The notes below the pieces were generated by a model. The model was not told the origin of the DNA and ran no database searches. It was given only the letters and a program-made list of their open reading frames with translations. Below, piece after piece: positions 15,601-60,587 of a stretch of DNA of 64,000 nucleotides (position 1 is the first letter of the stretch; each line of letters starts with the position of its first letter). This DNA comes from Panopea generosa. Its lineage: Eukaryota > Mollusca > Bivalvia > Adapedonta > Hiatellidae. The position numbers and the translations under genes were made by a program. Where the stretch lies: positions 94,780,046 through 94,844,045 of the forward strand of contig CM055897.1 in assembly GCA_029582155.1 (NCBI GenBank), in the 5' to 3' direction.

Positions 15601-18600
15601 GTTTGAAAACATTTTGACACTTTACAAATGAGAGCTGAGTTATACAGAAATGGCATGCGATAATATTACACCAGGTTACCATAAAAAATGTGCCATGGGT
15701 TTATTACACTCCTGCACTGTAAATTATGTGATAAAGAAACCATAGTGCGTGAAGGTATATGAAAAAAATTGTGTGCTACTTAATATTTATGGAAATATAC
15801 TGTTAATATTGAAGAAAGTGAAAAAATCATAACATTGACTAAATGATATATATATCATAAAACCCCTATATGGAATGTCATAGGGATCATATATACAAAA
15901 TTTGAACACAAAATCAAACATATATATTTAGCTTATCAGTTCTTGTGAAGAAATTCCACAATTTGATCCCTTTTAGGTCCATGCTGGTTCCTTATGAAAT
16001 TAAATTCCCTTTGAAGGACTTAGTCTCATTTGTTATGACTGAACAATGTTTCAGACCTAAAGATGATTAAAATAATTCTTAAAATGGATTGGACCATGAG
16101 AATTTCCTGTTTTCCCATGTAAAAATTAAAGTCCCCTTAGTGGCTTGAACAAATTTGAGAGAAACCATTTATATGTGGTACTACATGCAAACTAGTAAAG
16201 CTCCAGGGGCCCATTTCACTAACCTTCATAAGTCTTAAGAATTTCATACGAACAAATTGTGACATCTAGGAACATTTCATTTGCACAGTATTTTTTGCAA
16301 ATTTCAGAAAGAATACTTTTTGTAATGCTTGAAAAAAATTGTAAAATAAGTAAACGACACACGAAATGAATTTCCCCCTAACATATTTTCTTACCTTCAA
16401 ATTTTACACTAAGAAGTTCTTAAACTTACAAACTTTAATGAAACAGGCCTCAGGTCTTGTAGCTTTGTAGAAGAAGAAAATATTGATAGATAAAATGATA
16501 AGCTCCTAAGGTGGAGCCATTTTTAATAAATGTTTCATGTAAAAATGCTTGGCACCAAATTTGTTGAAAATTTGTCCACTTGTCTAAGTGAAGAAGTAGT
16601 TTAGTTTGAAGCAAAAGTCCATGACCAGATGACAGACACAAAGTGATCAGAAAAGCTCAAGTTGAGTTTTTGACAAGTGAGCTAAAAATAAATAATAAAA
16701 ACATTACCTGTAATGGTGAAGATAAAATTGAGCTGTCCAGTTTTTGTGCTGGCCATTTTGAGTTGATCAATGTCTTGCCTGTTTCAGCCATTACCACGGT
16801 CTGCGCCTCACTAAGTGGTGCAGCAATGATGTCCAACTGACCATCAGCATCCACATCTGTGATAAATGGAGCAGCGGCAAATGGGGAATGGGCTACTTCT
16901 GCTGTCCATAGTTTTATCAAGTTATATCCACATCTAAAATGTAAAATAAAGTTAACAATGATACACAGCCTATAGCTATTAATAAAAGTTATATATAGTT
17001 GTATTATAAGTATGGTAAAGTTAATATGTCCAAGAGCATTGTTTATTTTCTTCTTAGAAGAAAAACATTTTTTTTTCAAAATTGTTACAAATCAATTGAT
17101 ACTGGCGGTTGGAAAAATTAGTAAATAAAACAAGGTCACCCCTATTCCCATCTGCATATTTCATTTTGAGGCCGTAGAAGATTGGAATGTTATGACCTGA
17201 ACAAACAATACTTGCTATAAATAAATATATAAAAAAAATATAAGGATTTAGGTAGTGGGATGAACTGCTGTTAATGGATGTACAGACATTTTCAAATTAA
17301 GTACATTTAAATGCAACTTCCATAATCTTAGTGAATGAAGAAGATGCGGCGAAAACAGACATTTATGAAATGGTAAGGGTGAATATAACCAATATGGTGT
17401 GATGAATGCCACACTCAGTAGTTAATAAGGCCTCTATGGCTATGTCCCATGGTCCCAGTCTCCCAGAACTCTATGGATGATCCGAAAATACGTCGCAATT
17501 CAATTGGGTGTCGGACGTTTCGGTAAATAGCCAGTTCGGTAAATTGGATTTATATAGTAAACCGATTGGACGTTTCGGTAAAAAAGCAATTATATAGTAA
17601 TTATATGGTAATTGTATGGTAAAGTATATCACAACTCTCACGAATACAATAAATGATAAAAATTACTTTGTTTTTATCATTCGCTCCACTGTGTGTTATA
17701 TTGGGTATGGTCTAAACTGGTAGGGGATGGGGATAAATCACGAGTAAAATTGACGTACGTCGAACAAACGAACTTCGGGTCAACCAAAACAAATCAAGGA
17801 CATTAAGACATAATATGTTTAATATCTATTTTGTATCTATTACAAAGTAAAAAGTACATAGCACAATACAAACGTTAAATCATACATCATACACACATAT
17901 AAAGAATAAAATAGCACATTCAAAATTCAGCACAAATAACACGAAAAATAGCACATAATAATCATAAAAAATGAAATATATTGTACATTACGGCCTGTGC
18001 TATGTACTTTTTACTTTGATCCGCCGAAGAATCATTGCCAAAAATTAGGCCATACTGTACAATATGTTTTATTTTTTATGATTATTATGTGCTATTTTTC
18101 GTGTATGATTTAACGTTTGTAGTGTGCTATGTACTTTTTACTTTGTAATAGATACTATAAGAACTAAAAATGTGTTTGTTTTTTTACTCGTAATTTATTA
18201 AACATATCATGTCTTAATGTCTTTGATTTGTTTTGGTTGACCTGATGTTCGTTTGTTCGACGTACGTCAATTTTACTCGTAATTTATCCCCATCCCTTAC
18301 CAGTTTAGACCATACCCAATATAATACACAGTGGAGCGAGTGATAAAAAACAAACAGAGCAATTTTTATCATTTATTGTACTCGTGAGAGGTGTGATATA
18401 CTTTACCATACAATTACCAAATAATTACTATATAATTGCTTTTTTACCGAAACGTCCAATCGGTTTACTATATAAATCCAATTTACCGAACTGGCTATTT
18501 ACCGAAACGTCTGTAAATCATTTAATTTCTTTCTGCAAAATTTTAAATGAAATAGTTTTATTATAATAAACCTGTTTCTTTCCAGCTGGTCTGCCTTTGT

Positions 18601-30300: not shown

Positions 30301-33300
30301 CACATTATTGAGAATAATAACATCACCTGCAAGAAAAAAATATTTTCAATAAATACCACAAAATATTCATTTTCATAAACTATTATTTAAACATACACAT
30401 AGCAAAATTTGGGGAAAAGATCCATAGTAATTGTAACTGAAAAGAATTAGTTTACATCATTATTCAATCAAAAGATTCACAATTACAATGTTAATGGTGT
30501 GGCATCTAAAACATCTTTAAATTTCAGTATCTCATTTACTGAATATGACAGAAAATAGCATTAAAGAAAACAAGAGTTGTCAGAAGACAACAAAGCTTGC
30601 CGATGGGATAAAACTCACCACCAATGCAAAGATTGAGATTAGAGGCAAACACCAAACTTAAACGCATCTAAACGCAAAAGTTTAACCTGGGTGTGTACAG
30701 ACGAAAAATTAAGTCTTAAAGGGTCATAACTCTGCCAAAATGCAATCCAAAGTTATGGTTCTTGTCTCTGTTTGTTTCAATGATGATGATGAACACACAT
30801 GCGGAGTTTCATTCATATCCAATGAGTGGCTGCATAGATATCTTATGTGATAAAAAAACTTTAACCTTAAAAATTAAGTAAAAAAAGGGCCATAACTGTG
30901 CCAAAATGCAACCCAGAGTTATGGTTTTTGTCTTTGTGTGTTTCAATGATGATGATGAACACACATGCAAAGTTCTATTCATATCCAATGAGTGGTTGTA
31001 TAGATATCTTACCTGATAAAAAACTTTAACCTGAAAAATTAAGTCGAAAAAGGGCCATAACTGTGCCAAAAAAGTAACCCAGAGTTATGGTTCTTATCTA
31101 TGTGTGTTCCATTGATGATGGTGAACACACATGTGAAGGTTCATTCACATCCAATGAGTGGTTGCATAGATATCTTAAACTTAAACGCAACTAAACGCAA
31201 AGTTTAACCTGGGTGTCTTAAGTCCAAAAAGGGCCATAACTGTGCCAAAATGCAATCCAGACTGTGAGTTATGGTTATTATCTCTGTGTGTTCCATTGAT
31301 GATGGTAAACACACATGCAAAGTTTCATTGACATCCAATGAGTGGTTGCATAGATAACTGAAACTTAAACACAATAGTTTAACCTGGGTGTCTACAGACA
31401 CCTACGCCGGGGTCATGACAATAGCTCTCCTTGGACTTCGTCCTGGCGAGCTAAAAAGAAATGTGATTTAATCATTTCATTCAAAATACCTAAATACATG
31501 TACATGTCACACTTTGATTATTAAATGGTGAAATTCAAACTTTCATCAAAAATATCTTGAAGGTAAAATTATTTAGTAATGTTGTTGTATGGTGTTAAGT
31601 GTTGCCTTCAACAATTTTTCAGTCATATCGCAACATCGTCCACTTGAGAAAGTATTTTAAGTAATGGCACACCGGAGGATCGTGCTGTAGATATATGGTA
31701 TGATACCCCACCCAGTCACATTATACTGACACCTGGCCGACCAAACCATGATCTATCCTCTAATCACAGAGTGCCAAGCAAGGAATTTTCTAGTACCATA
31801 TTTTTCAAGTCTTTAGTACGACCCGGACAGGGATGAAACCCACGACCTTCCACATGCAAGGCAAATGCTCAACCACTAGACCACTGCTGCAGTTTCTTAG
31901 CATAAAGTACAACAATTGATGTTTACGTTTTATCTTTCCCAGTGTTTACTTTAATTACTCTTGCTGAACCAATTCATTTCTTTGCTTATTGTTTTTTTTT
32001 TCATACTGATTTGTGAATGGTGGTATCAATTTATTTTCAGTATGGTACAGTTTGGTGAAGTAATTATTGTGGTTGCTGCTATGGTAATATTACTATTATT
32101 CAAATCAATAACCATTGTGCATCAAACAAACAAATGTAAAACACTTTAACTTACTAGCTTGAAGAAGGTCTGCTTGCTGAATTATATCACTGTGAACTAT
32201 CTGCAAACAAATAATAAATCAATCAATCAAAACAAAAACAGTATGATCTAAAAATAAAGGGTAACTATGTACGTGTATTTAAAAGAAAATGAATATTCTG
32301 ACTTTGGTAAACAGGGTTTTGTTTTCTGTTTTACTGGTGAATAAGGATTCAGTTTTACTTGCTGTGTTTTGTTTCTGACGAAATAGGCTTTTGATTTTAT
32401 GGACTGATAAATCAGGATCTTGTTTTCTGACTATCAAAACACTGTCTGAAGCAGTTTTGCTTTCTGCTCGTCTTTGTCAGAGTTGACATTCTTGACTGTC
32501 TTGGTGGGGTTTTGATTTTTCTAATTATCTAGAATGACTTTCTTTTTTTAACTGTTTTTCTAACCATCTTACTGACTGCTGAAACAGTGTTTTGTTTTCT
32601 GACTGTTCCCAATAAAGTAAATAGAACGGTGTTTAAACTTATAAATGCATGTGACCAGTGGACATCCTTAGATGGAATATCAAATCTGAGTATATGTATA
32701 TAACCTAAAAGCAAGCATGCACAATGTGATTCTAACTAAACTGTGACTGGTGGGCTCAAGGGAAATAATTATGTCACTATTAAATATAGAGATACAGAAC
32801 CTTGGCAAAGAACCTCACTAAATGATGTTGAAGTTATGAAAGAACTGCATATTTACTTAAAAATTATTACAACTTACAGAGAAACAGACCAGACATAAAA
32901 TTTTGAACACCTCAGTAACATCAAGGAGAACAATTCTTACAAAACTGAAGGTATGGACCTTGTTGAATGATCGTCTGGAAAGTTCTAAAAGATTTGCATC
33001 ATTATGTAAACTAGTCACAAATTTACAGATTAGGCGAATTGTAAAAAGACATATTTTTTGGTTGAGGAAAATGGTTGCAGATTCCTGCAAAAGGTCAAAA
33101 TACCATGGTAATTATTAAAATGTGAAGAAAAAAATGCAATCATAAGTTTTAACATGTTACGGGTCAACATCCATGTTTTTCAATGTTTTAAACTATAAAA
33201 CTGGTGTTAAACCCCGTTGAAAATATACAAAATATATTTTAATTTTCTGGTGAATTCTTTATAACATTAGGTGTAACCAAAGAAATGTTTGTTTTTAATC

Positions 33301-36300
33301 TCTTTTGACCAACTTTCTTTGTATTCCTTCTTTGTCTTTTTGCTCATTTATCAATGCCATAAAGACAATTAATATAATTATGATATATAATAATTATTAA
33401 AAGCTCACTCACACGGAAACCACTTGCCACTGTGTTGGCATCAATAATTGATGCAAGGAGTAAATAATCACTGAAAGGGCACACCATTGCAATATGGTTC
33501 TATATACATATAAACAAATAAGTTAGAATGTTACATAGAACCATCAAGATACTCTAGGTTGTAAAATACAGGGAAATATTCACAGGGTCATAAAAAAAGA
33601 AGAACTGACATGTATTAATCTCTATCAGATTCTGACATTGGACATTTCTAAATTTCGAATGTAGCATGAGTATACTGTTCAGAAATGACAGTGTGTTTTT
33701 ACATACAAAACATGTTAAAAATATACAATAAACAGTGACACAACATAATATCATGGTTTCAAAATATATCTCGATCAACCTGCCCTGTTTTATTTGGCCA
33801 TGAAATTGACGAGGGGAATGGGACAAACTTTGCGGGAAAAAACCTGGTGAAGAGTGTCATATGTCAGTTTGAGGGATATTTTACATGTATCAGTGATAAC
33901 AACAATATTACCTGTATTCTGTCTCCCATGTTGTACTTTTCTACCACTTTTTTCTGCAATTCACAAAACGTGACATCAAGTTCTACACCAACTATATGTT
34001 CAGCCTCACTAAAAAGATAAGCCTGAAATTAAAGGAGTAAAAGGTTGTATTTTATTTTAGAAATTCCTTTACTGGCCCTCATGGAAGTTTCTACATGCAA
34101 ACACTTTGTTTCATTTAAATGTTTTAACCCTTTGCTCCATAAGCATTTTCTTGGACTCTTCTAAATTGAAAGTATTAATACCCCACTTATCAGCAATGGG
34201 TGAATTATGGTTACATTTACTGACTGAGTAGAAAACAGTGAAGGAAGTGTTCAGATTGCTCGTTACGAGCAATCTGAACTCTTTTGCACTGTTTTCAAAG
34301 GCCTTCTGATATGGGTGTGGGAAAACGCGTATCTATGGAGTTAAGTGTTAATAGTCAAAACAACTTATAAATAAAACAAAAGGCTCAGATGGACCTAGAG
34401 CGATCACTTTGGAAACAATTTCATAATTGTTAAAACAAATTAGTTGAGTTTAAGAGAAGATGTTGCTTAATATATGAAATTCTTAAAATGGGCAGAGCCC
34501 GGACATCCATCTTGCAAGACATTGATATGGCAACACCCAATTTCTGAAACTAACTGCTTGCAAAATGTTTGACTTTTTTCTTGTGTAAGTAGTAGAAATG
34601 ATATCTGGAAAGTATATAAACCAATCAATCTATATACAGAAGGATTTGGCGACTCACGGACGGGCAATTTCCACCAAAAATTCATGACATACATAAAAAG
34701 GCCATACAAGCCCAGATACACTCATCTGCGAAAAGCAAGCTATTTAAGTGACAATAATTTATATCTATTTTAAACCTGGCATATAAATTATTGATCTGAA
34801 ACGATTATTTTAACGACAATTAAGTCGAAAAAGCCCACAACTTCTATTAATTTTTACAGTTGTCAAATAATAACGAAATTGATCTGTATTTTATAATTAT
34901 ACAAATAAACACCTAAAGAATTCATTAAGTACATAGACTCTTTCAGAAGTTATTGATCGGAAACCAATTTTTACCACAGATGCACGCAAGAACAAACAAA
35001 CAGAAAGGGTAACACTTAACGCCCCTTCGGTGTGGGCTTAAAAAAGACACATTACCACTGTCCATATGCCATTTTCAAGAACATTCACAGACTCTTCAGG
35101 CAGCTGACCGAAAGATCATGCAAAGGACCTATTGAAAATTCAGCTTATTTTGGTCATGGTGGTTCTATTAGATCAATATATTTTTAATTTTTAAGTATCT
35201 CACTCAGGGAGAACCCCACAGAGTACTGATCATTATTTTGATGACCTTTTTTTAAAATTGTTTACAACGATCACTTACACCATATAATACAGCTCCGGTT
35301 CTTGAACCAACATCCAACACGGTTTTATGTTGGAGATCTTGAAGTAAACTCTGATATATGTACTTTATTTGGGGGACAGCCAGTGAATGGGTTATAAAAG
35401 CTGAAAAAATTATGAAGTGATTTACATGTATATTTGTATGCATAGTAATCTTTTATTTATTACTAGTCTAAGACAGAGACAGACTGTCAGAGTGTCACAG
35501 TGTGTACGTAACCTACTAGGAGAGAAAATATGCAGCCAGTCCGGGACTTGAACCCGGGACCGTTGGCTTACAGGGCGAATGCTCTACAGTCTGACCTAAC
35601 CGAACCACTTACATAAATTCCTCTCCTAGTAGGTTATGTACACACTGTGACAAATTCCCTCACAAATTCGAAATTCGTCTCGAATTTTCATAGAGACCAG
35701 AGAATCATGTAATGTTTCTCGGAATATATATCAGTCACAGTCCCTCGTTGGGCGCCAATGTTACAGGACGAGAAAATATGCAGCCAGTCCGGGACTCGTA
35801 CCCGGGACCCTTCGCTTACAGGGCAAATGCTCTACCGTCTGAGCTAACCGAACCGCTTACATAAATTCCTCTCCTAGTAGGTTACCTACACACTGTGACA
35901 AGAGTATAATGTTGTAAGTTTTAGCTAGTTTTTTAGTTATAGGCTCTATTAGAATTCCACAAGATTGTTATCCTCAGATTTCTGTGCACAGTCTTTTCCT
36001 TTCACCCTCAATACCGAGCCTCATGTCAAAAACAATATGCATATACATGTACATGTGTAACACAAACAGCATTTGACCTATGTTGACATCACTCAGCAAG
36101 ATGTTTGATTCTGATTTGTAAAGGGCTGCAACTCAGTAGACATTCATCAAACCAGAACACAAAAAAGGATTGCACAACTTAGACCTCACACACATCCTTC
36201 CAAGCAAATTTCAGATAAATCCTACCACAGATATCGGATAAGATTTTGTGACAGACAGACAGTTTGAAAGCAAAAAAAGTGATCCATCTCCTAGAGAGGG

Positions 36301-39300
36301 GGAGATAACATTCATACTAGTGCAAAAATGATTCTAATGGCAATTGAAAAGCAGGGCAGTAGTGTATTGGATAGAGTGTTGGCCATTCAGACCAAAGGTT
36401 GCAGGTGCACTCCACAGATAAACCTAACGCCTTCCAAAAACACACTCAATGTTAGAATACCCCAGTATGTGCACTGACCTTAATTTTTTTGGAAATGGAG
36501 CCTGCTGACATAAATTTTGTAAACTTAATGGTTAAATGGCATATTTCCCAAATATTTGGTCAAAATAATGTATAACTTAAAATGTACTGGGTAATAAACA
36601 GTTTATATTTAAATTCATGAGTTTTTATCTGTATGGTAGGAAGATGTAAGGAAATATTTTTTAAGAATTTTTACTTTTTACATTTTCTTTTAAAAATTTA
36701 ATAATTCATGAATGTTACATTTAAAATAGTAGTGCTTGGAGATTGTAATATTTTGATATGTCAATACATTCATAGATGTAAAGACTGATTTGATGCGTCA
36801 ATTCAAACATGAGTAAACACGATTTTAACATTGCCGTACTATGTTTCCATAGTACTCTGCCAATGAGGATTTGTAAATATATGATATTGGTTAAACTCCC
36901 TGGATTAAATAAGTTATCGTAACCACTATCATTTACTTTAACGACTCAGAACATTCTTCCCAGGCAGCAAGTAATTATAGCCATTGGTAATTGTATAACA
37001 GTTTTTTTGTAACAGTAAGTTAGGACTCAGTGTGCTAAAATACACCATTAATCAGCTGCAACACAGATCCACATGTATTAGTTTACTATTTAGAGCATGT
37101 AGAGTGTATGTAATTACAAGCTACATGTATGAACTCAACAACTGCTCCATAGAATTTTTCAAATTTTTGGCAGTAGGGATTATTTTCTTCAAACTGCATG
37201 ATCTGTATATATATATATAACAAACACTTTCTGGAAATTATTTTTTTTGGAATTAAATATTTTAACAATACCACAATCTAGTAGTATGCAAAATTATAAC
37301 AAAACCAACCAGTGCAGTGGAGACTCTATAATTATAACAAAACCAACTAGTGCAGTGGAGACTCTATAATTTTGAAAAATGGTTCTCTGATTTGAATCAT
37401 GAATAGAATTATACAATACCTGCCCTAGAGCCATCTTGCAGTTTTTATATGGCAGTTGGGGCTTTCAAAACACATAGACTAAATCTTGAATACAATGTTT
37501 ATATGAAACATATAAAGCAAAACTAGACCTATCACTGTAGTGATGAATACCCCCGAACGCCGCCATGACAGAAAATGGTTAACCATTGTATGAAGTTTTA
37601 TTAAATTATATCCAATAGTTTTAAAGTAATGCTCCAGACAAAAGAAATTCTTAATAAAAGAGAATGTTATGGATTGAGTTGTTTGTATTGTTAATTTTTT
37701 TATGGTTTTGTTAAAATTAAAAACGGTCTTTTTAATTATTGTGCAGTGTACAAGCTTTCATGGCAATCAATAAATGTTATACTTTTTCGAGTTATGTTGA
37801 AGGACAACAATTTTATGGATAAGAAACAAACAAGAGCACTAGGAATACAACATCGAATCTGCTTTGCTCGAACTCCATGTATTCACCAACTTGGTTCTTT
37901 CATGAACTTTATTAAACTGTTATCACTGATGGCTTTAAAAGTACTTTAAAAGTACTGCACCAGACAAGGGAAATATATCAAAGGGCAATAACTCTGTAAT
38001 TAGCAAGAATAGAGTTATGTTTCTTGTACACTGCACTTCCTGTCATTATATTCTACCATTGTATGAAGTTTGATGAAATTCCATCCAGTACTTTAAAAGT
38101 AATGCTCCGGACAAAGGAAATATATCAAAGGGCAATAACTCTGTAATTAGCAAGAATAGAGTTATGTTTCTTGTACACTGCACTTTCTGTCATTATATTG
38201 TACCATTGTATGAAGTTTGATGAAATTCCATCCAGTACTTTAAAAGTAATGCTCCAGACAAGGGAAATATATCAAAGGGCAATAACTCTGTAATTAGCAA
38301 GAATAGAGTTATGTTTCTTGTACACTGCACTTCCTTTCATTATATTCTACCATTGTATGAAGCTTGATGAAATTCCATCAGGTACTTTTCAAGTTATGCT
38401 CCGGACAAGAAAAAATATCAAAGGGCAATAACTCTGTAATTAGCAATAATACAGTTATGTTTCTTGTACACTGCACTTCCTCTCATTATATTCTACCATT
38501 GTATGAAGTTTGATGAAATTCCATCCAGTACTTTAAAAGTAATGCTCCGGACAAGGGAAATATATCAAAGGGCAATAACTCTGTAATTAGCAAGAATAGA
38601 GTTATGTTTCTTGTACACTGCACTTCCTGTCATTATATTCTACCATTGTATGAAGCTTGATGAAATTCCATCCAGTACTTTTCAAGTTATGCTCCGGACA
38701 AGGAAAATTGCAGACAGACCGACCGACAGACCGACCTCAGGGTGACTCCAGTATACCCTCTCAAAACTTTGTTTGTCAGGGGTATAATGATGTAGCAATT
38801 TGATATACATAATTTATATACTTAGAGGTTTGACAGACTTTGAGTGACAGTTGACACAGTAGTTTCTGGAAAGAGTTCCCTCTTCACACATGTCGTCTAT
38901 TGCATCATCATCATACAGAAACCCGTCAACATGAACAGTAGTTGCAAGATCACAGTCTGCATTCTGAAACAAAATGGCAGGAATTCCCCATACACAAGTG
39001 GTTTCCATATATACCTTGCTTTTTCACTATTACAAATATATTTAAATAAAAAACAATTGTTATTGTACTGTGTTTTAATAGTGTCGCTTTCAAAAATATT
39101 TCAGTCATACTGCGACAGTGTCTATTTGAGACAGTATTCTGAATGCTGTCACACTGGAGTATCATGCTGCAGACACATGGTATGATACCCTACCCAGTCA
39201 CATTATACTTACACCGGGCCGACCAGACCTAGAACTCTCCTCTTAATGCTGAGCGTCAAGCGAGGAAGCTTCTAGTACCATTTTTAAAGTCTATTGTATG

Positions 39301-42300
39301 ACCCAACTGGGGATCAAACCCACGACCTACAGCATGCGAGACGACCGCTCTATCACTAGATCACGCTGCGCTCTTAATAAAAAACAACCTCAGAACATTA
39401 TTTAAATACTTTTACAACATAACCCCACTGGTCATCTAAACATTTAAAATATACAATTTCTATAGATACCATATAATAATTCTACTATGATTATTACATA
39501 TATTTTCAGTGGATTTTTTTAAAATGTCTTTTTTTTATGGCATTTGTATGGTCATATTGTAACAATAAAATAATAATGGCATTCCATTGTGTTTTTATAA
39601 GTATTTATTACAGTGTATTGGTATAAAATGATTTAAGGATTAAAAATATACTCGGTAAATGTTTATGAAAAATATTATGAAAGGCTTATGGTATATTTTC
39701 ACAGTGCTCATATTAGTTTACTTATCACATGCTTTTATCTGAATTTAGCTATTTAAACTCATTTGTATATCAGATTAAAAGTTATGTAATCTTGGAGCAA
39801 GATCTTGCAGACTGGATTTATATAATTTGTTTTTACTCGAAACATATAAAATATGTTGTAAGTACTGATAACGTGTTTATTATAAATTATAATAAATTTA
39901 TTGATCCAAATGTAAATGTCATATAAATGACTTACAGGGCCAACAGCAGGCAGGATGATATTCTCCGTCTCTGAGGTACATTCAAGTGGCAAACTCTCAC
40001 GTATGTCCTCCCTGATACTATCTAGAATAGTTGTTGGGTTGTCCTGTGATGTCAGGTTTTCAAACAGATCTGAAAACAGCATCTATGATACATTAAATTA
40101 ATTAAATGAGATAAAATAATATATACAAGGTAGCAAGGAATATTTCATATAAGGTTTGGGACTCTGACTAGATATTTACCCAGTAGTTATGCATTATATA
40201 TTTATCTCTTTCAATTCTGATTGCAAGTGTGTTATTGTCCTACTCTGGTGGTTTGTCCTGTGGTGAACCATGTACAAAACTACAGACATGCAGCTTAATA
40301 TTTACAGGATAAATTCAGGACAAAACCATTGCTATATCGTGTTTAATTTTCAGAATGACAAACTTTCATTTAAAAACGGCGAGATTTGGAAATGGCAAAG
40401 ATAATCTGAGTGGTGTTACATACTGATATTCATAATTGTTTTAAGCAAAAATGTTGTCAATTTGACTTGTCTGTATGTTAAACATACCAGTAACACTTAT
40501 CTTTGTTTGACCTAATGTCCATAACCTGTATCCTATGTTTGTCCAGCATGTCCTGACTTATTCAATTCCAGTCCAATGTTCATCCAACATTCTTCATTGC
40601 TTGTCTGAAGTTTACACTGGATATCTAGGTGGTTTCCAATGCTTAAAATGTTGTCTTTTGTTACATCTGACATTCTTATTGGATGTCTTGCATTGGATGT
40701 CTTGATGTTTGTCAGACATTTGAATATTTAGTTTCCTGTTATCACCAACAACCATAAAAATTGTCTCAAATAAACAAGACACTTATTATTTTACATTTAC
40801 ATTTATACAAGTATGTTCCTGGGTATCCCCATACTTACCTCTGACAAGTTTGTAATTGAAGCAAGGAATTGTTCTTTATAAATCAATAACCTGTGTTGAA
40901 TAAATTACCCAAACACATACTGAAATATAACTGACCTTAGTTTTGGAAGTAACAAAAGGTCACTTGTAACTTATAAAATATTTGAGATGGACAGCATTTT
41001 CCATGTCTGCAAATTTTCATCTGTATGAATAAGCACCCATAGGCTTTGTGACACACCACTGTCATAAAGATGTAAAGCTACCATTTAATTATTGCTATAA
41101 TGCACAGTTTTTACCAATTGGTCATGACTACAAGAGTGTAGAGTCCAATCAAGGGTGTATGATGTACTGCATTGATAATCTTGTGAACAAACCGCACAGC
41201 TTCAGTTCTTGAACTGTATAATTTTTAAGAGTGGTCAGAAAGAATTAATAACTGCATTATAAACAGTCAGTATCTATTTCACTCTTTACTACATAGATAC
41301 GCGTTTTCTCGCACCAATCACAGAAGGATCATAGCGAGCAATCTGAACACTTCCTGCACTGTTTTCCACTCTGTCAGTAAATATAAACATTATTTACCCA
41401 ATAATTCAAAAGCCTTCTATATTAGGTGTCCAAAGGTGTCTATATGAAGTAAAGGGTTAAGGAATAAAAAAACAAAGGGTAAGTCAGCTCACTACTGTCT
41501 GGGAAAGGCGGCTTCTGATTTTATCGGGGGACTAGGTAGAAATAATATTACTACCTTTAATTCGATACCCTCTTGTCAATAGAAATGAAATGGGAAGGTG
41601 CGTTTCTGTATTGAAACTAGGTTGAAACTAGGGAATGAGGGATCTCACAAAAGGATCTGAAATAAAATATCCTAATTATATATGAATGTTAATACTTTTC
41701 ATAATATTTTTTACAAACAAGTCAAGTATCCTGGAATTCCACACACCAATCAAGTACGACTATACGTCAGGAGGTGCCTGTACTTTGGAGGAAGAAATAC
41801 AGAATATTTGCAAATCATAAATAAATCGCGAAAACCGGTCTCACTATTTAGCGTCAAGAAGCGACAAGAAGCGTCAAGAACTTTATTATTAATAAAAGTT
41901 ACCGTTAGGAAATAACCATGTGTATATTATACCTATATAAACATATATCAGTTGATTTTTTTAAATTCTATTCATTAATAAAGTCATAATTGGACTGTTT
42001 CTCCGTTGCAATACCTACAAGAAGATCCGCCATTTTGTTTATGCAAAGGATAGTAACCCGTTAGCGTCAAGAAGCTGAATTGGCGTATGTGACACTAATG
42101 ATAAACATTGTCTGCACTAACACTTGTTTTTCAATAAACTAATTACATTCAAATAGTTTTTTATAAGTGTTGTGATTGCTAAAAATCGTGTCGGTACATG
42201 TTAACCTATTACAAAATATCAGCGTCAAGAAATCTGATAACTAGCGTCAGGAAGCATAGTCTTGTAAAAATCGTTTCAAAATATCAGCGTCAAGAAATCT

Positions 42301-44376
42301 GATAACTAGCGTCAAGAACCATCACGTTGAAGAAATAATAAATTGATACACAAAAAACAACATGAAGCATAACCTTCTAAAAATTGTTTCAAAGTATTAG
42401 CGTCAAGAAATTTGATTACTAACGTCAAGAAGTATCACGTTGAAGAAATAATAAATTGATACGTAAAAAATCAACATGAAGCATAACCTTGTAACAATTG
42501 TTTTCAATTATCAGCGTCAAGAAATCTGATAACTAGCGTCAAGAAGCATAACCTTGTAAAAAGTGTTTCAAAATATCAGCGTCAAGAAATCTGATTACTA
42601 GCTTCAAGAAGCATCACGTTGAAAAAATAATAAATTGATACGTAAAAATCAACATAAAGAAGCATGTAACTTTTTCCTATAACTATATAAAGTAACCATA
42701 TCTTACCTTCTAACCCATAATCCATATTAAAAGTTAATCAAGCTTTGCACTTGACATAACGATAAACTATATCCATATGATTTTTTTTAACAGAGTGAAA
42801 TTTTTCATGAATAATAAATTCTGTTGGATTACAGGTATTGCGAGTTGTTTGTATGTTTGATTATATAATTACCTGTTTGGTTACTCAATAAATTGATTGC
42901 CATCATCCAAGCAGCTACACGCTCGTAAGCGGGCTTGTGTTTGTTTGTAAAGAAAGCTAATTAAAATAAGGCACACGCCGTTTTCGTTGTTTGCACCTCT
43001 GAGCTGCTTGGATGACGACATTCAATTTATTGAGTAACCAAACATCTAATTGTATAATCAAACATACAAACAACTCGCAATACCTGTAATCCAACCGAAT
43101 TTATTATCCATGAAAAATTTCACTCTGTTAAAATATCATATGAATATAGATTATCATTATGTCAAGTGCAAAGCTGGATTAAATTATTATATGGATTATG
43201 GGTTGGAAGGTAAGTAATGGATACTTTTTATAGTTAGAGGACAAAATTGTACGTTGATTTTTACGTATAAATTTATGATTTCTTCAACGTGATGCTTCTT
43301 GGCGCTAGTGATCAGATTTCTTGACGCTGATATTTTGAAACACTTTTTACAAGGTTATTCTTTCTTGACGCTTGTAAACAGATTTCTTGACGCTGATATT
43401 TTGAAACAATTTTCACAAGGTTATGCTTCATGTTGATTTTTTGCGTACCAATTTATTATTTCTTCAACGTGATGCTTCTTGACGCTAGTTATCAGATTTC
43501 TTGACGCTGATATTTTCAAACACTTTTTACAAGGTTATACTTCTTGACGCTAGGTTATACTTCTTGACGCTAGTAATCAGATTTCTTGACGCTGATATTT
43601 TGAAACACTTTTCACAAGATTATACTTCTTGACGCTAGTAATCAGATTTCCTGACGCTGATATTTTGAAATTTTGAAACAATTTTTACAAGGTTATGATT
43701 CATGTTGAATTTTACGTATCAATTTATTATTTCTTCAACGTGATGGTTCTTGACGCTAGTAATCAGATTTCTTGACACTGATATTTTGAAACGATTTTTA
43801 CAAGGTTATGCCTCCTGACGCAAGTTATCAGGTTTCTTGACGCTGATATTTTGTAATAGGTTAACATGTGCCGACACCCTTTTTAGCAATCATAACACTT
43901 ATAAAAAAATATTGGAATGTAATTAATTTATTGAAAACAAGTGTTAGTGTAGACAATGTTTATCATTGGTGTCACATACACCAATACAGCTTCTTGACGC
44001 TAGCGGGTTACTATCCTTTGCATAAACAAAATGGCGGATCTTCTTGTCGGTATTGCAACGGAGAAACAAAAGTTCAATTATGACTTTATTAATGAATGGA
44101 ATTTAAAAAAAATCAACTGATATATGTTTATATAGGTATAATATACACATGGTTATTTCCTAACGGTAACTTTTATTAATAATAAAGCTCTTGACGCTTC
44201 TTGACGTTTCTTGACGCTAAATAGTGAGACCCGCGAAAACACATAACAATGACAATAACAAAATGATGACTACCATTAATGGTTTCTTTAGCCCATAACA
44301 AAAACTGCTCCGCATCAGATTGCTTCACTGCAGATATAAGCGTATTGAATTCATTCACAGCACGTTGAAATTCCAT
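27308..44376 (-). CDS. Class I SAM-dependent methyltransferase, 9 constitutive exons
   Basis: Exons in coding order: 44274-44376, 39936-40069, 38822-38963, 35279-35400, 33912-34022, 32155-32200, 30266-30326, 29485-29575, 27308-27439. All phases agree, giving 942 nt and 313 residues. The start is the first in-frame ATG (MEFQRAVNEFNTLISAV). A Cys-pair segment (RNYCVNCHSK) precedes the catalytic fold. Motif I, the SAM-binding glycine loop, is VLDVGSRTGAVLYG; beta 2 is HIVGVELD with its acidic end; beta 3 is IQIVHSDII; beta 4 is SDVIILNNVFEFF; a later strand is SIIITVPS. The ELD...FCELQ stretch recalls DOT1-type Rossmann methyltransferases, but this is not DOT1 itself and the substrate is unknown. 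No signal or membrane segment is seen, so it is probably cytosolic or nuclear. Introns hold a foldback element, a TRIM, piggyBac-like MITEs and pearl-like arrays. Confidence 0.82.
27600..29340. repeat. Interspersed repeat block around the 28-kb array
   Basis: The flanks of the 28-kb array (27650-28110 and 28885-29330) are two diverged copies of one sequence, with words such as TGAACAAATTTGACTGG, ATCCCTTTTGGGGTC and CTAAAGATGATTAAAAT. A third copy is at 15890-16160. They contain no open frame and look like parts of one large non-coding repeat family. Confidence 0.5.
28150..28900. repeat. Tandem array of 140-160-bp units with TTTCCATGGTAAC
   Basis: Five units aligned on TTCCATGGTAACA-like words at 28251, 28391, 28532, 28691 and 28852, each followed by AATATTGAAAATGAAAACTC and GACATGTGTACAAAGTTT. 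The spacing is 140-161 bp. In an intron of the methyltransferase gene. Confidence 0.65.
29735..29940 (+). mobile_element. SINE family B, truncated head
   Basis: Retains GGATCCCCGCCCAGCCACAG, GTGGGAAAGTTATCAGTTAC and GAAGGTTGGTCTGTTATCCC. The A-box end is missing or worn. Confidence 0.55.
30571..31456. mobile_element. Pearl/HINE-like element with about 165-bp tandem core
   Basis: Starts CAAGAGTTGTC with hairpin GTTGTC-AGAA-GACAAC, contains four core units marked by GGGYCATAACTSTGCC at 30721, 30887, 31052 and 31231, and ends in an imperfect hairpin GGACTTCGTCC followed by GAGCTAAAAAG. It has the same ends as the element at 21100-21288. The CTAA after the hairpin resembles the CTRR terminus of Helitron-type elements. 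Confidence 0.68.
31605..31896 (-). mobile_element. tRNA-derived SINE, family C
   Basis: Minus strand: A-box TCTAGTGGTTGAGCATTTG, B box GGGTTTCATCCC, body AATATGGTACTAGAAAATTC and CATACCATATATCTACAGCA, end TTGTTGAAGGCAACAC. Confidence 0.66.
33413..33499 (-). other. Candidate 87-nt in-frame cassette exon of the methyltransferase gene
   Basis: Between the exons at 33912-34022 and 32155-32200 lies an open 29-codon segment, both ends phase 0, with a strong donor (CGT|gtgagt) and an AG acceptor after a T-rich tract. It encodes NHIAMVCPFSDYLLLASI and following residues. Inclusion would separate DRIQ from IVHSDII and so split the canonical beta 3 strand; skipping restores the usual fold. It may be a regulated cassette, a recent exon or a chance open segment. 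Confidence 0.4.
34124..34351. mobile_element. piggyBac-like MITE
   Basis: 228 bp bounded by TTAA at both ends, with inverted termini TTAACCCTTTGCTCCATA and TATGGAGTTAAGTGTTAA and an internal palindrome AGATTGCTCGTTACGAGCAA. TTAA plus a CCC start is the piggyBac signature. In a methyltransferase intron. Confidence 0.68.
35533..35606 (-). other. tRNA-like unit inside the second LTR copy
   Basis: Second copy of the tRNA-like unit, with B box GGTTCAAGTCC (closer to consensus than its partner) but a damaged D arm (GGTC instead of GCTC). It lies at the same relative position inside its LTR. Confidence 0.55.
35781..35854 (-). other. tRNA-like unit inside the TRIM 5' LTR
   Basis: About 73 nt with an A-box-like TTAGCTCAGACGGTAGAGC, a D stem GCTC/GAGC, an anticodon-arm-like CCTGTAA loop closed by TTTGC/GCGAA, and a good T arm (CCGGG/CCCGG) with B-box-like GGTACGAGTCC. 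The acceptor stem pairs only weakly and U33 is not in place under the best-paired anticodon arm, so this is a tRNA-like unit rather than a confident tRNA gene. Confidence 0.6.
37293..37373. repeat. 38-bp tandem duplication
   Basis: ATTATAACAAAACCAAC and GTGCAGTGGAGACTCTATA occur twice at a 38-bp step with one difference. Intronic in the methyltransferase gene. Confidence 0.75.
37520..38788. mobile_element. Pearl/Helentron-like element with 147-bp tandem core
   Basis: Begins with a perfect hairpin ATCACTGTAGTGAT (37531-37544), followed by degenerate core units and then about five high-identity units of 147 bp: the word AAGGGCAATA occurs at 37981, 38128, 38275, 38421 and 38568. A (GACM)n microsatellite follows at 38711-38736, then a closing inverted repeat TATACCC/GGGTATA. 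Hairpin, tandem core, ACYG microsatellite and end hairpin is the layout of bivalve pearl-type elements related to Helentrons. Non-coding, in an intron of the methyltransferase gene. Confidence 0.72.
39082..39372 (-). mobile_element. tRNA-derived SINE, family C
   Basis: Minus strand: A-box TAGTGATAGAGCGGTCGTC, B box GGGTTTGATCCC, body AATGGTACTAGAAGCTTCC, end TTTTGAAAGCGACAC. It lies just upstream (in transcription) of the 38822-38963 methyltransferase exon. Confidence 0.66.
41272..41460. mobile_element. Second copy of the piggyBac-like MITE, decayed left end
   Basis: Shares ACGCGTTTTC, AGCGAGCAATCTGAAC and CACTGTTTTC with the copy at 34124-34351 in the opposite orientation, and ends GAAGTAAAGGGTTAA. 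The left TTAA is degraded. It lies 376 bp outside the foldback element. Confidence 0.6.
41837..44231. mobile_element. Foldback (FB-like) transposon with long inverted arms of subrepeats
   Basis: A 2.4-kb element whose left arm (about 41837-42910) is repeated in reverse complement as the right arm (about 43000-44231) around a short unpaired centre near 42960. The ends are GGTCTCAC and GTGAGACC. Direct repeats of CGCGAAAAC flank it (41827-41835 and 44232-44240). The arms contain many copies of the 10-mer GCGTCAAGAA (about 12 on the left, more in inverse on the right) inside longer subrepeats of roughly 60-130 bp. Long tandemly structured inverted arms with 9-bp duplications match the known architecture of Drosophila FB elements. 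No transposase is encoded. It sits in intron 1 of the methyltransferase gene, close to the exon 1 donor. Confidence 0.88.
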
Positions 44377-53147: not shown

Positions 53148-56100
53148 GATTGATAATAGTCTCAGTTTGTGTAATATTCTGTTATTGATGCTGTAGTCTC
53201 AGTATGTGTAATATTCTGTAGCTGGTGTTGTAGTCTCAGCATGTGTAATATTCTGTTTCTGTTGTTGTAGTCTCATTATGCATAATAATCTGTAGCTGGT
53301 AATATAGTCTCAGTATGTGTACTATTCTGTAGCTGTTGTTGTAGTCACAGGATGTGTACTATTCTGAAGCTGTTGTTATAGTCTCAGTTTTCATAATATT
53401 CTGTAGCTGTTGTTATAGTCTCAGTTTCCATAATATTCTGTAGCTGTTGTTATAGTCCCAGTTTGTGTAATATTCTGTAGCTGAAGTTATAGTCTCAGTA
53501 TGTGTAATACTCTGTAACTGTAGTTATAGTCTCGGTAAGCAAAATATTGTTTAGCTGATGTTATAATCGCAGTATGCCTTATATTCTTACGCTGTTTTCA
53601 TAGTCTCAGTGTGAGTAATATTCTGTAGCTGTTATTATAGTCACGGTACGTGTAATAATCTGTAGCTGTTGTTATAGTCTCTGTATGCATAATAATCTGT
53701 AGCTGTTGTTATAGTCTCAGTATGTGTAATAATCTGTAGCTGTTATTATAGTCTCAGTATGTGTAATAATCTGTAGCTGTTGTTATATTCTCAGTATGTG
53801 TACTATTTTGTAGCTGTTGTTATAGTCTCAGTGTGAGTGATATTTTGTAGCTGTTGTTATAGTCTCAGTATTTGCAATAATCTGTAGCTGTTGTTATAGT
53901 CTCAGTGTGAGTAATAATCTGTAGCTGTTGTTATAGTCTCAGTATGAGTACTATTCTGTAGCTGCAGTTATAGTCTCAGTATGCATACTAATCTGTAGCT
54001 GTTTTTATAGTCTCAGTATGTGTAATAATCTGTAGCTGTTGTTATAGTCTCAGTATGTGTAATAATCTGTAGCTATTGTTATAGTCTCAGTATTTGCAAT
54101 AATCTGTAGCTGTTGTTATAGTCTCAGTGTGAGTAATAATCTGTAGCTGTTGTTATAGTCTCAGTATGAGTACTATTCTGTAGCTGTAGTTATAGTCTCA
54201 GTATGCATACTAATCTGTAGCTGTTTTTATAGTCTCAGTATGTGTACTAATCTGTAGCTGTTGTTATAGTCTCAGTATGTGTAATGATCTGTAGCTGTTG
54301 TTATAGTCTCAATATGTGTAATAATCTATAGCTGTTGTTATAGTCTCAGTATGTGTACTATTTTGTAGCTGTTGTTATAGTCTCAGTGTGAGTAATAATC
54401 TGTAGCTGTTGTTATAGTCTCAGTATGAGTACTATTCTGTAGCTGTAGTTATAGTCTCAGTATGCATACTAATCTGTAGCTGTTGTTATAGTCTCAGTTT
54501 GCATACTAATCTTTAGCTGTTTTTATAGTCTCAGTATGTGTAATAATCTGTAGCTGTTGTTATAGTCTCAGTATGTGTAATATTCTGTAGCTGTAGTTAT
54601 AGTCTCAGTTTGTGTAATATTTTGTAGCTGTAGTTATAGTCTCAGTAAGCAAAATATTGTTTAGCTGATGTTATAGTCGCAGTATGCTTAATATTCTTAC
54701 GCTGTTTTCATAGTCTCAGTGTGAGTAATATTCTGTAGCTGTAGTTATAGTCTCAGTATGTGTCATATTCTGTAGCTGTTGTCATAGTCTCAGTGTGAGT
54801 AATAATCTGTAGCTGTTGTTATAGTCTCAGTTTGTGTAATAATCTGTAGCTGTTGTTATAGCCTCAGTATGTGTACTATTCTGTAGCTTTAGTTATAGTC
54901 TCAGTATGTGGTCTATTCTGTAGCTGTAGTTATAGTCTCAGTTTGTGTAATATTCTGTAGCTGTAGTTATAGTCTCAGTATGTGTAATATTCTGTAGCTG
55001 TAGTTATAGTCTCAGTGAGAGTAATATTCTGTAGCTGTTGTCTTAGTCTCAGTGTGAGTAATATTATGTAGCTGTTATTATAGTCTCTGTATGTGTAAAT
55101 TATTCTGTAGTTGTTGTTTTAGTCTTAGTACTCGTAATATTCTGTAGATGTTGTTTTAGTCTCTGTATGCCTTAAACTCTGTAGCTGTTGATATAGTCAA
55201 CGTATGTATAATATTCTGAAGCTGTCAGTATGCATAATATTCTGATTTTTTCTCCTCCTATTTCTGTTGTTGCAGTCTCAATATAGATTATATTCTAAAG
55301 CTGATGTTATATTCTCAGTATTTGTTATAATATATAGCTGTTGTTATAGTCAAAGTATGTGTAATATTCGGTAGCTGTGTATGTAGTCTCCGTATGCATA
55401 AAATACTGAAACTGTTATTATAGTCTCAGTTTGCATTATATTCTGTAGCTGTTGTTGTAGTGTATGTCTTAGTATGTGTAATATTCTGCAGTTGTTGTTA
55501 TGGTCTCAGTACGTGTGATATTTTGTAGCATTTTTTATATTCGTAGCACATGTACTTTTCTATTGCTGGTGAAAAAGTATCTTTATGTATAATATTTGTA
55601 GCATTTGGTAGAGTTTCAGTACGTTATGGTGTGTCTATGCATAACATTCTGTAGCTGTTGTTATCGTCTCAGTATGTGTAATATTATGTAGCTGTCTCAG
55701 TATGTGTAATATTATGTAGCTGTTGTCATAGTATCAGTATGAGTAGTATTATGTAGCTGTTGTTATTGTCTCAGTATGTGTAATATTATGTAGCTGTTGT
55801 CATAGTATCAGTATGAGTAGTATTATGTAGCTGTTGTTATTGTCTCAGTATGTGTAATATTATGTAGCTGTCTCAGTATGAGTAATATTATGTAGCTGTT
55901 GTCATAATATCAGTATGTGTAATATTATGTAGCTGTTGTCATTGTATCAGTATGAGTAGTATTATGTAGCTGTTGTTATTGTCTCAGTATGTGTAATATT
56001 ATGTAGCTGTCTCAGTATGTGTAATATTATGTAGCTGTTGTCATAGTATCAGTATGAGTAGTATTATGTAGCTGTTGTTATTGTCTCCGTATGTGTAATA

Positions 56101-58456
56101 TTATGTAGCTGTTGTCAAAGTATCAGTATGAGTAGTATTATGTAGCTGTTGTTATTGTCTCAGTATGTGTAATATTATGTAGCTGTCTCAGTATGTGTAA
56201 TATTATGTAGCTGTTGTCATAGTATCAGTATGAGTAATATTATGTAGCTGTTGTCATAGTATTAGTATGTGTAATATTATGTAGCTTTTGTCAAAGTATC
56301 AGTATGAGTAGTATTATGTAGCTGTTGTTATTGTCTCAGTATGTATAACATTACGTAGCTGTTTCAGTATGTATAATATTATGTAGCTGTTGTCATAGTA
56401 TCAGTATGAGTAGTATTATGTAGCTGTTGTTATTGTCTCAGTATGTGTAATATTATGTAGCTGTCTCAGTTTGTGTAATATTATGTAGCTGTTGTCATAG
56501 TATCAGTATGAGTAGTATTATGTAGCTGTTGTTATTGTCTCAGTATGTGTAATATTAAGTAGCTGTTGTCATAGTATCAGTATAAGTAGTATTATGTAGC
56601 TGTTGTTATTGTCTCAGTATGTGTAATATTATGTAGCTGTCTCAGTATGTGTAATATTATGTAGCTGTTGTCATAGTATCAGTATGTGTAATATTATGTA
56701 GCTGTTGCCATAGTATCAGTATGAGTAGTATTATGTAGCTGTTGTCATTGTCTCAGTATGTGTAATATTATGTAGCTGTCTCAGTATGTGTAATATTATG
56801 TAGCTGTTGTCATAGTATCAGTATGAGTAGTATTATGTAGCTGTTGTTATTGTCTCAGTATGTGTAATATTATGTAGCTGTCTCAGTATGTGTAATATTA
56901 TGTAGCTGTTGTCATAGTATCAGTATGAGTAGTATTATGTAGCTGTTGTTATTGTCTCAGTATGTGTAATATTATGTAGCAGTCTCAGTATGTGTAATAT
57001 TATGTAGCTGTTGTCATAGTATCAGTATGAGTAGTATTATGTAGCTGTTGTTATTGTCTCAGTATGTGTAATATTATGTAGCTGTCTCAGTATGTGTAAT
57101 ATTATGTAGCTGTTGTCATAGTATCAGTATGTGTACTATTTTGTAGCTGTTGTTATTGTCTCAGTATGTGTAATATTATGTAGCTGTTGTCATAGTATCA
57201 GTATGAGTAGTATTATGTAGCTGATGTTATTGTCTCAGTATGTGTAATATTATGTAGCTGTCTCAGTATGTGTAATATTATGTAGCTGTTGTCATAGTAT
57301 CAGTATGAGTAGTATTATGTAGCTGTTGTTATTGTCTCAGTATGTGTAATATTATGTAGCTGTCTCAGTATGTTTAATATTTTGTAGCTGTTGTTATTGT
57401 CTCAGTATGTGTAATATTATGTAGCTGTTGTCGTAGTATCAGTATGAGTAGTATTATGTAGCTGTTGTTATTGTCTCAGTTTGTGTAATATTATGTAGCT
57501 GTCTCAGTATGTGTAATATTATGTAGCTGTTGTCATAGTATCAGTATGAGTATTATTATGTAGCTGTTGTTATTGTCTCAGTATGTGTAATATTATGTAG
57601 CTGTCTCAGTATGTGTAATATTATGTAGCTGTTGCTATTGTCTCAGTATGTGTTATATTATGTAGCTGTTGTCATATTATCAGTATGAGTAGTATTCTTT
57701 AACTGTTGTTATTGTCTCAGTATGTGTAATATTATGTAGCTGTTGTCATAGTATCAGTATGAGTAGTATTCTTTAGCTGTTGTTATAGTCTCATTATGTT
57801 AAATTTTTTGTAGCTATTGTTATGGTCTTAGTATGTGTTATATTCTATAGCTGTTGTTTTGGTCTTAATATGTGTACTATTTTGTAGCTGTTGTTATGGT
57901 CTTAGAACGTGTAATATTTTGTAGCTGTTATTATAATCTCAGTAAGTGTAATATTTTATTACTGTTATGTAGTTTCAGAATGTGTAATGTTCTATTGCTG
58001 TTGTTGCAATAAATGTTTTATTATTTAGCTGTTGCTACATTTTCAGTATGCATAATAATTTGTAGCTGTTGTAATAGTCTCTGTATGAGTTATATTCTCT
58101 AGCTGTTGTTATAGTGTCATTATGTGTTATATTATGTAGGTGTTGTTATAGTCATAGTTTGTGTTATACTCTGTATTTGTTATTGAAGTTTCAGTATGCA
58201 TAATATTTTATAGCTGTTGGTTTAGGCTCAGTATGCGTAATATTCTATAGCTGTTGGTTTAGGCTCAGTATGCGTAATATTCTATAGCTGTTGGTTTAGG
58301 CTCAGTATTTGAAATATTCTTTAGCTGTTGTTATCAGTCTTAGTATGTGTACTATTCTGTAGCTGATGTCATAGTCTCATTATATGTAATATTTTGTAGG
58401 CGTTGTTATTATCTCAGTATGTATAATATTCTGTAGCTGATGTTTTTGTCTCTGTA
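53148..58456. repeat. 5.3-kb minisatellite of 37-bp monomers
   Basis: Roughly 140 copies of a 37-bp monomer with core TGTAGCTGTTGTTATAGTCT followed by a CAGTATGTGTAAT-like half. Copies from 53.15 to 55.64 kb differ by scattered substitutions (TAATAATC versus TAATATTC endings). 55.64-57.79 kb is a higher-order block (separate entry) and 57.79-58.46 kb is decayed again. A last unit occurs at 58801-58843. All frames have stops. Confidence 0.9.
55640..57790. repeat. 102-bp higher-order repeat within the minisatellite
   Basis: Three monomer types are arranged as a 28-bp shortened unit (GTAGCTG directly joined to TCTCAG), a 37-bp unit with GTTGTCATAG and a 37-bp unit with GTTGTTATTG. The shortened junction GCTGTCTCAG (or close variants) occurs near 55691, 55867, 56006, 56182, 56358, 56460, 56636, 56775, 56877, 56979, 57081, 57257 and 57359, at steps of 102, 139 or 176 bp, that is 102 plus 0, 1 or 2 extra 37-bp units. 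Confidence 0.87.
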
Positions 58457-59700: not shown

Positions 59701-60587
59701 ACTAATGCTATATGTATCAAAATTTCATGTGTGGATATTACCATGCAATACTGTTATATACTACATGTATAGCATATTATACAATGCTATGTGTATCAAA
59801 ATTTCATGTGTGGATATAACCATGCAATACTATTATATACTATATGTATAACATATTAAACAATGCTATGTGTATTACAATTTCATGTGTGGATATTACC
59901 ATGCAATACTATTATATACTACATGTATAACGTATTATACAATGCTATGTGTATCACAATTTCATGTGTGGATATTACAATGCAATACTATTATATACTA
60001 CATGTATAACGTATTATACAATGCTATGTGTATCACAATTTCATGTGTGGATATTACCTTGCAATACTATTATATACTACATGTATCACATATTATACAA
60101 TGCTAGGTGTATCACAATTTCATGTGTGGATATAACCATGCAATACTATTATATACTACATGTATAACATATTATACAATGCTATGTGTATTTCAATTTC
60201 ATGTGTGGATATTACCATGCAATACTATTATATACTACATGTATAACATATTATACAATGCTATGTGTATCAAAATTTCATGTGTGGATATTTCCATGCA
60301 ATACTATTATTTACTATATGTATAACATATTATGCAATGCTATGTGTATTACAATTTCATGTGTGGATATTACCATGCAATACTATTATATACTACATGT
60401 ATAATATATTATACAATGCTATGTGTATTACAATTTCATTTGTGGATATTACCATGCAATACTATTATATACTACATGTATAATATATGATACAATGCTA
60501 TGTGTATTACAATTTCATGTGTGGATATTAACATGCAATACTATTATATACTACATATATAACATATTATACAATGCTATGTGTATT
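59701..60587. repeat. 79-bp satellite, about 11 copies
   Basis: Units start with ATGCTATGTGTAT and contain TTTCATGTGTGGATATTACC and ATACTACATGTATAACATAT. The 79-bp step is exact over the array. Because 79 is not a multiple of 3, an open frame rotates through all three phases from unit to unit and yields overlapping, nearly identical short frames on the plus strand; these are not genes. Confidence 0.9.

Follow-up and report, generated by a model that had tools for sequence, protein, structure and literature searches.

A 408-bp retroelement of Panopea generosa with a tRNA-like unit in each LTR and an inverted repeat at the ends of its 3′ LTR

Main Finding

On the minus strand at 35493-35900 of the window, by which we mean the whole 64-kb stretch of DNA that was analysed, lies a 408-bp element made up of AGAG, a 5′ LTR of 142 bp, an interior of 106 bp, a 3′ LTR of 160 bp, and AGAG again. 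Because it is short and has paired LTRs that each contain a tRNA-like unit, together with a primer binding site (PBS), 4-bp duplications and no long ORF, it very probably belongs to the Helenus kind of TRIM, an assignment made from its anatomy against the published description. This kind is already known, bivalves included (Helenus, 2024), and the element is a further, well-formed copy of a recently named class of LTR elements that apparently use a pol III promoter. The inverted repeat at the ends of the 3′ LTR and the inequality of the two LTRs were overlooked in the initial annotation of this DNA, and in our judgement, which we would put only a little above an even chance, the unequal 3′ LTR arose by a fold-back template switch in the reverse transcription of this single copy.

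Anatomy of the Element

The features are given here in the direction of the element.

35901-35904, read as plus-strand letters: AGAG, target-site duplication adjoining the element's 5′ end
35759-35900, minus strand: 5′ LTR, 142 bp, TGTCACAG...CTGTAACA, from the direct-repeat comparison
35781-35853, minus strand: tRNA-like unit in the 5′ LTR (Rfam tRNA, 43.3 bits; ARAGORN tRNA-Thr, TGT)
35835-35846, minus strand: box A of the 5′ LTR, TAGCTCAGACGG, 12/12 to the consensus
35792-35802, minus strand: box B of the 5′ LTR, GGTACGAGTCC, 10/11 to the strict consensus
35773-35776, minus strand: TTTT, candidate pol III terminator, 4 bases past the tRNA-like unit of the 5′ LTR
35740-35757, minus strand: PBS, TGGCGCCCAACGAGGGAC, 1 base inside the 5′ LTR, 16/18 to what we take to be the metazoan tRNA-Lys-CTT end
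35653-35758, minus strand: internal domain, 106 bp, opening with T and TGGCGCCCAACGAGGGAC
35655-35661, minus strand: weak polypurine tract (PPT), GAGGGAA, followed by TT and then by the 3′ LTR
35493-35652, minus strand: 3′ LTR, 160 bp, with its own start repeated in inverted form at its end
35533-35605, minus strand: tRNA-like unit of the 3′ LTR (Rfam tRNA, 33.2 bits)
35525-35528, minus strand: TTTT past the tRNA-like unit of the 3′ LTR
35618-35652, minus strand: inverted repeat of the 3′ LTR, left arm
35493-35527, minus strand: inverted repeat of the 3′ LTR, right arm, its end abutting the target duplication exactly
35489-35492, read as plus-strand letters: AGAG, target-site duplication adjoining the element's 3′ end

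The two LTR-like copies that the initial annotation had recognized were borne out by self-comparison, in which the direct repeats run in register for 132 nt at 92% identity, both LTRs starting with TGTCACAG on the minus strand. The total of 408 bp, the PBS-like TGGCGCCCAACGAGGGAC one base inside the first copy, and the AGAG on both flanks stood as claimed, the last of these being a match with a chance of 1 in 256 at equal base frequencies. The LTR length of 142 bp given at that time is true of the 5′ LTR and not of the 3′ LTR with its 160 bp, and the purine run noted before the second copy is present but weak. A PBS of the tRNA-Lys type fits the anatomy, although its matches are imperfect, 16/18 to the tRNA-Lys-CTT end and 15/18 to the tRNA-Lys-TTT end, the 3′ ends used for this scoring being what we take to be those of the metazoan tRNAs.

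No stop-to-stop ORF of at least 90 aa overlaps the 408-bp element. Over their first 131 positions the LTRs show 10 differences, 4 transitions and 6 transversions (K2P 0.08), with seven of the ten in the 73-nt tRNA unit and three in the other 58 positions. Since the LTRs differ at 10 of 131 positions and neither tRNA-like unit has both boxes at consensus, the element looks like an old, decayed copy.

tRNA-like Units and Promoter Boxes

A tRNA search on the LTRs had been proposed at the outset, and it was run with Rfam and ARAGORN. The Rfam model RF00005 (tRNA) scored 43.3 bits in the 5′ LTR and 33.2 bits in the 3′ LTR, at a gathering score of 29, and these two units, both on the minus strand, are the only Rfam matches at gathering score in the window. 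The 73-nt unit sits at LTR positions 48-120 in both LTRs, in keeping with the equal position already claimed for it, and ARAGORN predicts one of the two, that of the 5′ LTR, as a tRNA-Thr with the anticodon TGT. Both units have the anticodon loop CCTGTAA, with C at tRNA position 33 according to the Rfam alignment, a position that is normally U. The A and B boxes described earlier are indeed there, but in neither unit are both of them at full consensus: box A is complete in the 5′ LTR and reaches 10/12 at the equivalent position of the 3′ LTR (counted by eye, the script having given a tied 10/12 elsewhere), and box B is 10/11 to the strict consensus in each LTR and, to the general consensus, 8/9 in the 5′ LTR and 9/9 in the 3′ LTR. 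TTTT occurs once in each LTR, four bases past the tRNA unit, and nowhere in the interior.

The notion put forward in the initial annotation, of a TRIM whose LTRs carry a pol III-type promoter derived from a tRNA, fits this anatomy. Judging from their letters, the tRNA-like units look like decaying promoters rather than functional tRNA genes, and we suggest keeping in mind that tRNA annotation may score such LTRs as tRNA genes, given that ARAGORN called a tRNA-Thr here despite C33 and the altered box B.

Unequal LTRs and the Inverted Repeat of the 3′ LTR

In the standard model of reverse transcription both LTRs of a fresh insertion are identical, and therefore unequal ends must have arisen during cDNA synthesis or afterwards. 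In this element, after the shared ...CATATTTTCTC, the 5′ LTR closes with GTCCTGTAACA, terminating in ...TGTAACA, and the 3′ LTR closes with TCCTAGTAGGTTACGTACACACTGTGACA, which is a near reverse complement of the start of the 3′ LTR. The two arms thus defined pair at 33 of 35 positions, the best among 20,000 mononucleotide shuffles reaching 21. The outer arms match at 28 of 29 positions and the next 16 alignment columns at 11 of 16 (Fisher p 0.017, an optimistic value in that the 29-nt boundary was picked after viewing the data), and this change in arm match lies close to the point where the two LTR tails diverge. The inverted copy halts at the terminus of the 3′ LTR, which is the start of the target duplication, with no extension into the flank.

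RNA folding of a 150-nt piece of the 3′ LTR gave z −5.8, with 0/200 shuffles as good, and that of the 5′ LTR gave z −2.05, with 6/200 as good and a stem surrounding the tRNA unit. In the 5′ LTR, the stretches on either side of the tRNA unit showed no significant complementarity, 1692 of 20,000 shuffles being as good, and 494 of about 5000 random stretches of the window were as good as its inner inverted repeat. This inner inverted repeat of the 5′ LTR, hinted at by the folds, was not counted as a family feature in view of these shuffles and random stretches.

Searches for Other Copies, a Partner and an Empty Site

Self-comparison revealed no second copy of the element in the 64-kb window, the best matches outside the element having E 0.074 and E 0.26, the latter matching the tRNA unit over 37 nt at 76%. 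Exact-pattern scans of viral contigs, a collection that is not animal, returned 0 stretches for the element, and the single Nostoc stretch from the scan of genome contigs was dismissed as chance, with no tRNA by ARAGORN and with surroundings unlike the element by eye. In a distant BLAST against phage and plasmid records, the matches were confined to the part of the query with the tRNA unit of the 5′ LTR (14%) and came from two phage records, both of one phage and with a tRNA-Thr feature, and from one plasmid record with no listed feature. These copy searches covered viruses, prokaryotes, phages and plasmids, and therefore they say nothing on the copy number in animals.

There are 35 stop-to-stop ORFs of at least 90 aa in the window, and a Pfam scan for an autonomous partner, which took in 30 of these 35, gave three weak matches, none of them at the curated cut-off. 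As for an empty site, the joined flanks without the element had no off-site match better than E 0.035, and the right flank alone had a 17-nt match at E 0.003.

The window has other repeats and ORFs. A tandem array of about 5.3 kb lies at 53156-58456 (period 37, 146 copies, 78% matches, consensus ATAGTCTCAGTATGTGTAATATTCTGTAGCTGTTGTT), and shorter arrays are found at 59704-60586 (period 79, 11.2 copies, 94% matches), at 37940-38706 (period 147, 5.2 copies, 92% matches), and at 30703-31356 (period 166, 3.8 copies, 83% matches, containing AGGGCCATAACT). The array at 37940-38706 contains GGGCAATAACTC, a motif common in bivalve repeats. For strings like that of the array at 30703-31356, a literature search yielded no paper on bivalves, judged from titles. 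A large inverted repeat of about 2 kb and 80% at 41837-44231 holds repeats of the 10-bp motif AGCGTCAAGA and longer tandem units, and a long palindrome of 1 kb, about 81% to its own reverse complement, occupies 17514-18511. The minus-strand ORFs at 6964-7293 and 16657-17091 resemble, on inspection by eye, exons of a protein with repeats, and they had no Pfam match at E 0.01.

Proposed Life Cycle and Origin of the Unequal 3′ LTR

We suggest a pol III life cycle for the element, the directly shown part of which is the anatomy. In the parent, RNA polymerase III would initiate at the tRNA-like unit in the 5′ LTR, pass the short TTTT of this LTR without terminating, and stop at the equivalent TTTT in the 3′ LTR; given one TTTT per LTR and none in the interior, read-through and then a stop would give an RNA with the tRNA-like unit at both ends, where it could serve as the repeated R region. 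A start in the 5′ LTR and an end in the 3′ LTR are proposed in line with what is stated for Cassandra, whose transcripts are said to run from the 5′ LTR unit to the 3′ LTR unit (PMC10886601). To judge by the PBS, tRNA-Lys would then prime the first strand, the work being done by enzymes of a Ty3/Gypsy-type element, and the same enzymes would integrate the copy with a 4-bp duplication. Against this cycle, many pol III transcripts should already terminate at the TTTT of the 5′ LTR, and the element may instead be transcribed by pol II. The tRNA-like unit was also considered as the element's own primer and discarded, the PBS here being of the tRNA-Lys type and the unit of the tRNA-Thr type; for Helenus, Kojima 2024 (PMC10886601) reports having found no complementarity between tRNA unit and PBS.

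The fold-back would have preceded integration. The growing plus strand would halt after ...TTTTCTC in the 3′ LTR, pair anew with GAGAGGAA of a plus-strand U3, G-T pairs included, and then copy this second strand as far as its free end. The inverted repeat thus made would finish precisely at the LTR terminus, and the integrase would accept such an end. We favour this origin because one event accounts for the length, the sequence and the end point of the 3′ LTR. It is supported by the near-identity of the outer arms next to the poorer match of the inner columns, with the arm boundary near the divergence of the LTR tails, by the lack of significant complementarity across the tRNA unit of the 5′ LTR, and by the inverted copy ending at the LTR terminus and not in the flank. 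If it is true, unequal LTR ends record a reverse-transcription error that is tolerated by the integrase. On the other side, a single copy is known, the modest 5′ LTR fold may be what is left of a hairpin common to the family, and the same outcome may be due to the later loss of 19 nt from the 5′ LTR.

The last two points belong to a reading in which the hairpin LTR is family-wide, the ancestral LTR being 160 bp long with its tRNA-like unit between inverted repeats of 32-35 nt; we hold this to be possible and rather doubtful, and we are equally hesitant about its second part, namely that a deletion between CT repeats later shortened the 5′ LTR by about 19 nt, one further base being inserted and one changed. 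The 33/35 match of the 3′ LTR arms and the fold scores of both LTRs agree with it, CT is common to the end points of the deletion, and the terminal GTRACA is retained. It needs three changes (deletion, insertion and substitution) vs. one for the fold-back, near-identical outer arms next to diverged inner arms would require a special cause, and the inner complementarity of the 5′ LTR is not significant; the Helenus paper (PMC10886601) has no word starting with inverted, palindrom or hairpin in its main text. A lineage of Helenus whose LTR forms, over its full length, a near-perfect hairpin with the tRNA-like fold at its tip and with a functional fold is unlikely, and if it existed, both element ends would be long inverted repeats and the fold would contribute to reverse transcription, to integration or to escape from silencing. 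Improbable, in our opinion, is an origin of the unequal 3′ LTR after integration, by inverted duplication or gene conversion from the 5′ LTR: such events do happen in genomes in general, but the copied part would have had to end at the LTR terminus by chance, with no run into the flank.

Other classes of element explain the structure far less well. The 408 bp could be regarded as a TIR DNA transposon (MITE) with a captured tRNA, lying between 35-nt inverted repeats (35493-35527 vs. 35866-35900, 94%) with a 4-bp duplication. MITEs are bounded by terminal inverted repeats and lack both LTR-type direct repeats and a PBS, and the element has the 35-nt inverted repeat and yet also two long direct repeats and a tRNA-Lys-type PBS exactly 1 base inside one of them, this repeat adjoining the PBS with an ordinary LTR end, so that we consider a MITE very improbable. 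The least probable reading is a pair of tRNA-derived SINEs in tandem or a duplicated tRNA gene, for which the tRNA-like units with A and B boxes would speak. A tRNA-derived SINE has a 3′ tail of A or simple repeat and no LTRs; here there are LTRs and no poly-A or simple-repeat tail, the repeat reaches 47 nt upstream and at least 11 nt downstream of the tRNA unit, the PBS sits at the junction, and a single duplication pair encloses the whole element.

Comparison with Known Systems

By its shortness, its non-coding sequence and its two direct LTRs, albeit of unequal length (142 vs. 160), the element is a TRIM. With biv-TRIM (Satovic et al. 2019, PMC6934838) it shares being a small non-coding LTR element of bivalves; biv-TRIM is reported to have repeats of 202-218 bp, an interior of 77-80 bp, no unambiguous PBS, and the TGATCCCAAAGGAC segment in all species but one, whereas here the repeats are 142/160 bp, the interior is 106 bp, a PBS is present, and TGATCCCAAAGGAC is absent (by eye). 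Cassandra, a plant TRIM with 5S sequence, carries a pol III promoter and terminator within its LTR (PMC7215508). The likeness lies in the pol III-type promoter and terminator inside the LTR, the terminator being here a candidate; the difference lies in 5S rRNA, plants and 565-860 bp there vs. tRNA here, where the Rfam matches at gathering score are tRNA only. The analogy with Cassandra drawn in the initial annotation was apt, and the same comparison is already in print.

The closest system is Helenus (TRIMp3), described by Kojima 2024 (PMC10886601) as TRIMs with tRNA-derived sequence in their LTRs in bivalves and other organisms, with 51 families across five pteriomorph bivalve orders, so that the initial remark, that no description of such a family in bivalves was known to its author, was overtaken by this paper. 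Among the papers from 2024 on that a literature search for Helenus as a TRIM listed, only Kojima 2024 (PMC10886601) has the name, and among the papers matching TRIMp3 it is, judged from titles, the only one with the TRIM sense. According to this source (PMC10886601), Helenus elements range from 311 to 1263 bp, those of animals have 4-bp target duplications, those of bivalves have six primer types, tRNA-Lys among them, and seven bivalve families could encode tRNA-Thr; the PBS region of animal Helenus resembles Gypsy only, Gypsy partners being inferred, and pol III transcription of Helenus is, by its account, without experimental validation. The present element, with 408 bp, is within this length range and has a tRNA-derived unit in both LTRs, a PBS just inside the 5′ LTR, a tRNA-Lys primer type, a tRNA-Thr-type unit and a 4-bp duplication. 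It differs from Helenus as described in that its 3′ LTR ends by repeating its own beginning in inverted form and its PPT is weak.
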